From positions 124,001-188,000 of the forward strand of contig CACYQB010000011.1 of NCBI GenBank assembly GCA_902776435.1: 64,000 bases of DNA, given 5' to 3'. This document shows positions 12,299 through 24,347 of this stretch, piece after piece. The notes under the pieces were generated by a model. It ran no database searches, was not told where the DNA came from, and saw only the letters and a program-made list of their open reading frames with translations. The stretch's first letter is position 1; the number at the start of each line of letters is the position of its first letter. Source of the stretch: an uncultured Bacteroidales bacterium (lineage in GTDB: Bacteria > Bacteroidota > Bacteroidia > Bacteroidales > Muribaculaceae). The translations under genes and the position numbers were made by a program.

Positions 12299-12465
12299 GG
12301 CAAAATACCCATCAATCCGCCCATATCTTCCTCACAATTACCCCAAATAAACACAAATTTAACACCCAGTCACATTTATTAACTATAAAAACAACCCCAA
12401 CCCAGCATTCCAGAAGACCTCTCCCCTAACCCATATTCTCATTGCTCGCAAGAAATCAAAAAAAA

Positions 12466-12529
12466 CAAGCCAGCAGGCGATACGGGTCCTCGACCCACCC
12501 GCCTAAAAAACAGCAGAGCCAACGCTTTC
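12466..12529. repeat. 64-bp direct repeat, copy 1
   Basis: A 64 bp sequence beginning CAAGCCAGCAGGCGATACGG and ending AACGCTTTC recurs at 12981-13044 with only a few changes. The two copies bracket the hairpin element at 12588-12862. Next to this copy CCTGTTTTCCGCA (12529-12541) is the inverted complement of TGCGGAAAACAGG (12962-12974) next to the second copy. Confidence 0.85.
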
Positions 12530-12587
12530 CTGTTTTCCGCATTGGGACACGCTGTGAAGTCATTAATGGCGATTGTTGTGTCCAAGC

Positions 12588-12862
12588 AGGTCGAAGGCCT
12601 GCACAAGGCCAGCGGCCTTGAATTGCATAAACCCCAGGGTGCACAGGCCGGAGGTCTGTGAAGCCTGGGGACGGTCAAGACAGTAATAACGGGCCCTGAA
12701 AGGGGCCACTAACCGCGACATTTCTTTAGTCTGGAGTGTGTGGCCCTCTTCGAGGCCCTTTCCCTTTGGTCGCTCTTCCCCCATGCCGCACAGACCTATC
12801 GGCCTGTACGCCATGGGGTTACCTCAATTCAAGGCCGTTGGCCTTGACAAGGTCTTCGACCT
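12588..12862. repeat. Composite covarying-hairpin element, copy A
   Basis: An imperfect inverted repeat of 275 bp. The outer arms (12588-12625 and 12825-12862) match at 33 of 38 positions and each contains two palindromes, AGGTCGAAGGCCT-like and CAAGGCC-nnn-GGCCTTG. Inside lie self-complementary hairpins: CCCCAGG..CACAG-gccggaggt-CTGTG..CCTGGGG on the left and CCCCATG..CACAG-acctatcgg-CCTGT..CATGGGG on the right, plus GGGCCC/GGGGCC and GGCCCTCTTCGAGGCC hairpins in the centre. A second copy is at 23872-24169. It may be a REP/BIME-like mobile repeat or a structured RNA; no coding sequence is supported. Confidence 0.8.
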
Positions 12863-12980
12863 TTTTTGCCGGATGAAAACAGCACGGGACACGCCATTTT
12901 GCAAAAATCATGACGTTAAATCACTGAATATCAGACAAAATTTATTTTAGCAAAATGTTAGTGCGGAAAACAGGAAAAAA

Positions 12981-13044
12981 CAAGCCAGCAGGCGATACGG
13001 GCCCTCAACCCGCCCGTCTAAAAAACAGCAGAGCCAACGCTTTC
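12981..13044. repeat. 64-bp direct repeat, copy 2
   Basis: Second copy of the 64 bp repeat at 12466-12529, in the same orientation and ending just before the terminator of the heat-shock gene. Confidence 0.85.
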
Positions 13045-23871: not shown

Positions 23872-24169
23872 CAGGTCGAAGACCTGAACAAGGCCAGCGG
23901 CCTTGACTTGAGTTAACACCATGGCGCGAGGGCCGTAGGTCCTCGTGGCTTGGTGACAGGCGCGTGAGCCGTAGGTCCTCGTGGCTTGGTGACAGGCGCG
24001 TGGGCATGATCGGGCCCCGTAGGGGGCCACTAAGGTCGGCAGGGAGTGGCCCTCTCTCGAGGCCCATTTTTCACGTCGGCCGCTCTCCCCAGGCCACACA
24101 GACCTTCGGCCTGTGCGCCCTGGGGCTACGACTAGTCAAGGCCGCTGGCCTTGTGCAGACCTTCGGCCT
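23872..24169. repeat. Composite covarying-hairpin element, copy B
   Basis: A 298 bp relative of the element at 12588-12862. The outer arms (23872-23909 and 24131-24169) again carry AGGTCGAAGACCT and CAAGGCC-nnn-GGCCTTG palindromes. The right inner hairpin is CCCCAGG..CACAG-accttcggc-CTGTG..CCTGGGG. The left inner hairpin keeps the loop gccgtaggt but has different, still paired stems (CGAGG/CCTCG, CACCA/TGGTG) and is tandemly duplicated as 36-bp units (23923-23958, 23959-23994). The central GGGCCCC/GGGGGCC and GGCCCTCTCTCGAGGCC hairpins are kept. Three further CGGCGTCCTCATGC-type repeats follow to about 24250. Confidence 0.8.
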
Positions 24170-24347
24170 GCTCGCCATCCGACGTCCTCATGCCCGCCTA
24201 CCGCCCGGCGTCCTCATGCAAGACCGCCACCCGGCGTCCTCATGCCTACCACCCAACCGCCTTCGGTCTGCCCGCCCGATTTTCGACTGCTTACTCACTT
24301 GCAATACTGGCGTGTTTTCGATGCATTTCTTTAAAATATTCTGTTCT

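Follow-up and report, generated by a model that had tools for sequence, protein, structure and literature searches.

In IS608, an IS200/IS605 element, the hairpins of the two ends are on one and the same strand. For REP/TnpA-REP, the system of the REP-associated tyrosine transposases (RAYTs), strand-specific recognition of folded single-stranded DNA has been reported (PMC8266576; this and the other papers are cited here for excerpts). The TnpA-Y1 subclass 1.2 is entered in the table of Quentin et al. 2018 with REP "no" and a DH[IV]H motif (PMC6006769), and TIRYTs are RAYT genes with long terminal inverted repeats (PMC3733652), 20 of 26 examples falling in subclass 2.1 (PMC6006769). IS1549 and IS1634 have long variable direct repeats of 8 to 514 bp and the end pattern C-----YT, and according to the same excerpt no mechanistic model has been proposed for the long duplications (PMC2266710); the table entry for the IS1634 family gives direct repeats of 5-6 bp. 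Here we analyze a 64,000-nucleotide stretch of an uncultured Muribaculaceae bacterium (assembly GCA_902776435.1, contig CACYQB010000011.1, positions 124,001 to 188,000; hereafter the window), in which a hairpin-rich element occurs twice, as copy 1 and copy 2. With good confidence, we read it as a nested non-autonomous element, in which hairpin ends derived from a Y1/HUH element form the inside and, at copy 1 only, a miniature inverted-repeat transposable element (MITE) of the IS1634 family forms the outside.

Results

Copies 1 and 2, at 12586-12863 and 23872-24171, are each made of two inverted ends, every end being a row of hairpins (hp), and each copy is a single long imperfect palindrome composed of small palindromes. 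The ends are as follows, those of copy 1 being assigned by the better-folding strand and by homology to the corresponding ends of a transposase-bearing copy on contig C14 of the same genome.

12586..12709, plus strand: left end (LE) of copy 1, inner Y1-type element; better fold on the top strand; hp1 12586-12602, hp2 12604-12620, long hp3 12632-12670, hp4 12691-12709
12740..12863, minus strand: right end (RE) of copy 1, inverted; better fold on the bottom strand; hp4' 12740-12758, hp3' 12779-12818, hp2' 12830-12846, hp1' 12849-12863
23872..24028, plus strand: LE of copy 2; hp1 23872-23886, hp2 23889-23905, hp3 23917-23955, hp4 24012-24028
24046..24171, minus strand: RE of copy 2; hp4' 24046-24065, hp3' 24087-24125, hp2' 24137-24153, hp1' 24155-24171

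C14-type ends run hp1, hp2 (CAAGGCC nnn GGCCTTG), long hp3 and hp4, the last adjoining the gene. The layout of hp3 is an outer 7-bp stem, a G.G mismatch, a C-G pair, usually a G.T and an inner 8-bp stem with C(GNA)G at its tip, where the mismatch and this closure are fixed by the search pattern. The typical loop is thus a C(GNA)G triloop in which N is free, and GNA has been described as forming an extraordinarily stable minihairpin loop in DNA (PMC6479982, citing Yoshizawa 1997). In copy 2, hp3 has a partial tandem duplicate within 23917-23991, ending at 23991. The first-pass annotation of this DNA had both copies in the right place, and the match of 33 of 38 positions that it reported between the outer arms (12588-12625 and 12825-12862) holds. 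Both copies fold much more stably than shuffled sequence: the RNA fold z is -13.4 for copy 1 (0/200 shuffles as good) and -9.9 for copy 2 (0/100). The conserved loop that it described, GCCGnAGGT or ACCTnCGGC with a free n that fits the GNA triloop, does occur at five places (12647, 23932, 23968, 24102 and 24159), but the set is a mixture from both copies, with one in copy 1 (left hp3) and four in copy 2 (left hp3, its partial tandem duplicate, right hp3 and the right terminal hairpin). In the right hp3 of copy 1, the loop is longer by one base. A genome-wide loop family was considered and dropped: an initial pattern guess matched two places only, and ACCTNCGGC is not enriched, with 85 forward and 92 reverse occurrences vs 113 and 111 for a backwards control.

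The genome that holds the window (3.45 Mb, 43 contigs; the window is C11:124001-188000) contains 15 matches to the element at eight places, a count that takes both strands and counts the C14 halves apart. Copy 1 matches C5 (96%), C26, copy 2 and C14, with partial and weak matches on C4 and C20. On C14 the element is split into a left and a right half, separated by 558 bp, with a 148-aa open reading frame (ORF) between them. Among 101 genomes of the genus, the element is found at E<=0.001 in at least 41, up to 7 candidates having been scored per genome; the further copies in related genomes that the first-pass annotation had proposed to look for do exist, with paired stem changes in hp3. Within 170 bp of copy 2, no inverted repeat scored above the 95% level of shuffles; the gene beside this copy is a member of a repetitive paralogous group and so gave no information on an empty site. 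We read the window copies, from their homology to the C14 ends, as probable deletion derivatives of a Y1/HUH element without its transposase gene. Two side observations concern other copies and arrays. The C26 copy (L003) is enclosed by another 17-bp inverted repeat, TATYAGTGTCCGGTAAA, and end hairpins are arrayed in tandem, regularly spaced, at G088:C5:71504-72286 (218 bp) and in the right flank of L118.

The 148-aa enzyme encoded on C14 matches Pfam Y1_Tnp (E 3e-22). The IS200 model NF033573 of NCBIfam was passed at 59.8 (C14 enzyme) and 62.4 bits vs a cut-off of 55, and the model for REP-associated tyrosine transposases, NF047646, was failed at 32.3 and 26.6 bits vs a curated cut-off of 80. 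A PDB sequence search with the enzyme gave no match. Its AlphaFold model (pLDDT 88.7, 39 sequences), when used in a fold search, gave 30 PDB matches at E<=0.001, every one with a transposase in its title, including ISDra2, IS608 and the REP-bound RAYT 4er8. H53, H55, Y114, Q118, H121 and H122 do not vary across the 39-sequence alignment. The motif Y-x3-Q-x2-HH is present in 35/35 enzymes at least 54% identical and in 7/7 and 13/14 of more distant groups, and the HuH motif is NHIH in 30 and NHVH in 5 of the 35, with NHIH in 21/21 of the more distant relatives. In sequence, the enzyme resembles TnpA-Y1 subclass 1.2. The enzyme is found at E<=1e-10 in 79 of the 101 genomes, and its nearest named relatives come from metagenome-assembled genomes of uncultured Bacteroidales, "Prevotellaceae" and Muribaculaceae; water-buffalo rumen or omasum is the source of three of these. 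Three Y1 genes are present in the own genome, and the check for a RAYT-like transposase elsewhere in the genome, also proposed in the first-pass annotation, was therefore positive. One of them, P0002, is 60% identical to the C14 enzyme and has ends that are similarly laid out with different stem sequences; the third is longer and RAYT-like. A longer RAYT-like Y1 gene of 276 aa (L047, C11:193107-193460, about 5 kb past the window) has GTGACA/GGGACGGTTCT palindromic repeats on both sides and is a separate REP-like system.

The C(GNA)G hairpins around relatives of the C14 enzyme gene are strongly polar. We placed 74 enzyme loci and kept 56 (9 with short flanks and 18 duplicates were dropped), of which 35 are at >=54% identity; up to 240 bp per side of these 35 deduplicated enzymes gave 16.8 kb of flanking DNA. 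One of the loci (L120) has a stop inside the enzyme gene, and its flanks alone were used. C(GNA)G hairpins occur at the LE 57 times on the top strand vs 2 on the bottom, and at the RE 69 times on the bottom strand vs 1 on the top, which gives 126 in the expected vs 3 in the opposite polarity; in 71.2 kb of distant flanks the split is 10 vs 18. Such a hairpin is found on both sides (at least one each) of 28/35 genes. Wobbles follow the same strands. Counted by a symmetric criterion, G.T exceeds A.C by 24:1 at the LE top and by 19:5 at the RE bottom; this count replaces an earlier one of G.T 44 vs A.C 1, which was biased by pairing selection. DNA folding also favors the top strand at 32/35 LEs and the bottom strand at 33/35 REs (Wilcoxon p 7e-7 and 5e-7), and both window copies show the same preference. 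Since each end favors a different strand, a single RNA explains the pattern poorly and recognition of folded single-stranded DNA at each end explains it better; taken together, these counts argue for each end being recognized in folded form on its GNA strand. A 47%-identical enzyme (L142) has both ends apparently in the same orientation, unlike most.

The stems of hp3 covary. Among 40 distinct hairpins from fetched loci, 12/17 pairs show double-sided change that is still paired, in line with the compensatory change that the first-pass annotation had described. The compensatory cells number 110 vs a shuffled mean of 31.7, and the covariation score is 0.482 vs 0.168, the null being shuffles and the hp3 sequences being related to one another. 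The 40 were retained from 52 regex hits for keeping 14-15 of 15 stem pairs, and the 12 with 3-9 pairs were dropped; because the 40 were kept for pairing, the figure of 98.5% paired is partly selection. Stem pairing is retained in gene-less copies too. The likeness of LE and RE hp3 within an element (5 pairs, mean 3.6 differences vs 10.0 between elements) is confounded by descent and was not used.

The copy 1 range given in the first-pass annotation, 12588-12862, is merely part of a larger element.

12529..12974, no strand assigned: outer element, non-autonomous IS1634-family (MITE), 446 bp; 13-bp inverted repeats CCTGTTTTCCGCA / TGCGGAAAACAGG; ends align with intact IS1634-family elements
12460..12529, no strand assigned: left 70-bp direct repeat (target duplication), sharing its final position with the start of the inverted repeat
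12975..13044, no strand assigned: right 70-bp direct repeat, 94% identical to the left

The length of the duplication led us to guess the IS1634 family, which was then searched for; it gave a match in 39/101 genomes, 23 of them above the cut-off. Four IS1634-family genes (L237, L239, L240 and L241; 339-348 bits vs a cut-off of 100) adjoin matches to the right end of the window element, and both ends of these four intact elements align with it, the left end of L241 weakly (16.0 vs a shuffled maximum of 14.3). The terminal pattern C-----YT is present as CCTGTTTT in the window element and its intact partners, and direct repeats of 30, 63 and 156 bp surround L240, L239 and L241, respectively. The 446-bp element contains no ORF of at least 100 aa and no transposase gene of its own by that measure; to judge by its sequence, it is a non-autonomous derivative rather than a full member of the family. 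In the own genome, a search with the outer repeat for an intact partner returned only the ends of two MITEs and one two-mismatch site.

Similar wrappers surround the hairpin module at other loci. Of 20 loci tested for IS1634-type inverted repeats, 14 have both, 3 have one and 3 have none, and in 13 of the 14 two-repeat loci direct repeats of about 17-98 bp start within 5 bp of the inverted repeats. The direct repeats are perfect at L052 (42 bp), L063 (38 bp) and L189 (36 bp); L050 and L051 have a flank in common and probably represent a single site passed on by descent. By eye, IS1634-type repeats at L195:1501-2025 surround a different, P0002-type hairpin pair, which suggests a second, independent nesting.

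The site of copy 1 was also compared with 24 fetched loci of relatives (L258-L281). Both flanking genes are syntenic in 23 of them, with an intergenic gap of 86-602 bp vs 749-934 bp in the window; in the closest relative, G052, the orthologous gap is 160 bp vs 749. A blastn comparison to 12460-13044 gave no overlapping match in 23/24 of these loci. At L268 one flank is missing and there are two 37-38-bp matches to the hp1 region. The intergenic DNA of the relatives is too diverged for base-exact alignment of the junctions. By these comparisons the relatives lack the copy 1 element at the orthologous site, which is what an insertion would predict. The IS1634-family ends together with the 70-bp duplication offer a route by which copy 1 could have spread.

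A second wrapper is found around enzyme-bearing copies. Three of these (L115, L116 and L117; two in G094, one in G052) are bounded by GGYTCACCNGATAAAARGTGGGG repeats with exact 8-bp duplications. Eight short repeat pairs (74-130 bp) of the same family have no exact 8-bp duplication, among the pairs that could be bounded. At <=3 mismatches the second-wrapper repeat is present in 31/101 genomes, at up to 32 places in one and at none in the own genome, and a search for a DDE partner of the GGCTCACC repeat found no transposase among eight nearby ORFs. The enzyme genes of L115-L117 may thus also travel as passengers. In the GGCTCACCCGATAAAAGGTGGGG repeat family (L282-L311; G094, G058, G057 and G089), the short versions (about 75-111 bp) contain, by eye, either one or three of the hairpins described above, as if the palindrome had collapsed stepwise.

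Discussion

We propose that the inner layer consists of the paired inverted ends of an IS200-like, TnpA subclass 1.2-like Y1/HUH element whose transposase gene has been lost, and that the Y1 enzyme would be supplied by an intact copy elsewhere, here the one on C14. The enzyme would read each end in single-stranded form, with the GNA strand folded (top at the LE, bottom at the RE). Its likely recognition cues would be the loop, the wobbles and, in hp3, the conserved G.G/G.T irregularity, and it would cut by means of its tyrosine. By analogy with related systems (PMC8266576), we infer that the Y1 enzyme binds and cuts these hairpins. The stem sequence could drift freely as long as it stays paired, hence the covariation. 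At copy 1, the hairpin module would now fill the inside of an IS1634-family MITE, and a transposase of that family could move the MITE by way of the 13-bp inverted repeats, leaving long variable direct repeats; copy 2 would be the inner layer without the IS1634 wrapper.

Several observations weigh against this nested reading. No clean excision or insertion of the Y1 layer was caught in the loci compared, and the case for a Y1 layer that moves on its own is weakened most by the possible travel of enzyme genes as passengers. The enzymes carry NHIH or NHVH rather than the DH[IV]H of subclass 1.2. In 7/35 enzymes, including P0002 of the own genome, no GNA hairpin was detected on one or both sides. 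At 43-50% identity (group D, n=7) the polarity is mixed (LE top/LE bottom/RE top/RE bottom = 9/3/5/8), and below 40% (group E, n=14, many cyanobacterial) the same counts are 1/0/0/0; the link to the hairpins is therefore not universal in the enzyme group. On the side of the outer layer, the MITE L060 has no direct repeat, nor does the intact L237, whose contig ends 141 bp beyond its repeat, and the IS1634-family gene of the own genome (C6; G000:C6:50525-51982, L228) has no CCTGTTTTCCGCA ends in its locus.

The most serious competitor to the nested reading, which we nevertheless consider somewhat doubtful, holds that the hairpin module is purely a passenger, only cargo of IS1634-type and other MITEs, and that the Y1 enzyme is inactive on gene-less copies. 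It draws on the frequency of the wrapper, since of 24 full or near-full gene-less cores listed, mostly the best match per genome and biased towards the window type, 19 were tested for IS1634-type repeats and 13 have both, 3 one and 3 none. The three enzyme-bearing copies inside another inverted-repeat element, with their exact 8-bp duplications, fit it as well, as do the few copies in the own genome. It is less easily reconciled with the pairing kept by gene-less copies, with the shared strand preference of the two window copies and with copy 2, at which no IS1634-type repeats were found.

The two readings offered in the first-pass annotation, a REP/BIME-like unit mobilized in trans or a structured RNA, fare differently. 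Part of the former stands, in that inverted hairpin pairs flank a Y1 transposase gene and gene-less copies lie elsewhere, and window copy 2 even has GTAG directly 5' of its right hp3. As a typical REP/BIME family of a class 2 RAYT, the element would nevertheless be very unlikely: GT[AG]G stands directly at the hp3 foot in 2/54 flanks, one of them that same right end of copy 2, and at C(GNA)G hairpins in 0, 1 and 1 of 126 at a spacing of 0, 1 and 2. The copy number is low (eight places in the own genome, several partial), the score of the C14 enzyme against NF047646 is under the cut-off, and the motif shared by all 35 enzymes is set against the Y-x3-NP of class 2. The REP/BIME-like reading also overlooks the second element at copy 1, the IS1634-family MITE with its 70-bp target duplication. 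That the element is a structured noncoding RNA or riboregulator, as the very stable RNA fold and the covariation could suggest, we regard as extremely improbable. Rfam gave 0 matches in the window at gathering scores, the better-folding strand and the G.T wobbles switch between the ends of one element, unlike in one transcript, and copies lie at unrelated loci with target duplications.

On the nested reading, the hairpin ends provide a candidate DNA substrate for a transposase group recorded without one, to which we link them, and the prediction follows that C(GNA)G hairpins would be recognized strand-specifically while their stems drift freely. The locus also adds natural IS1634-family copies with target duplications of about 17 to 156 bp and would be a case of one mobile-DNA class embedded in another. 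In the open-access literature, none of the matches listed describes these ends, reports C(GNA)G arrays beside Y1 genes or mentions IS1634 MITEs that have a Y1 interior. A more speculative extension, which we put forward as an unlikely but conceivable one, is that the Y1 hairpin module can be reused and has been acquired more than once by unrelated cut-and-paste elements, and that the two systems may cooperate as a two-transposase composite; in such a composite, a single-strand enzyme would act on the hairpin core and a DDE enzyme would move the whole. IS1634-type MITEs carry two Y1 end types, that of the window and that of P0002 (L195), and the second wrapper holds whole enzyme-bearing units (L115, L116 and L117) as well as short forms of as little as about 75 bp.

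Relation to Described Systems

Compared with the REPtron/BIME arrangement, the locus has in common a Y1 gene between inverted hairpin repeats and gene-less relatives elsewhere. It differs in having about four hairpins per end vs single REPs, in the rarity of the GT[AG]G foot, in its low copy number and in its class 1-like enzyme. TIRYTs share the long inverted repeats around a Y1 gene, whereas the inverted repeat here is a row of covarying hairpins and the enzyme has the class 1.2 Y motif.

The enzyme itself is closest in kind to TnpA-Y1 subclass 1.2, with which it shares a length of 148 aa, Y-x3-Q-x2-HH and an occurrence in Bacteroidetes (PMC6006769); unlike that subclass as recorded, the genes described here have hairpin ends on both sides in 28 of 35 cases and carry NHIH or NHVH instead of DH[IV]H. 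With IS200/IS605 elements such as IS608 and ISDra2 it shares the enzyme fold, a passing score in the IS200 NCBIfam model and subterminal hairpins, but the ends here are inverted and the favored strand switches between them (126 vs 3). The outer layer of copy 1 is like IS1634 and IS1549 in its C-----YT ends and in its long variable direct repeats, seen in 13/14 MITE loci and in 3/4 intact elements, and is unlike them in that the window copy lacks a transposase gene and has an interior derived from a Y1 element.
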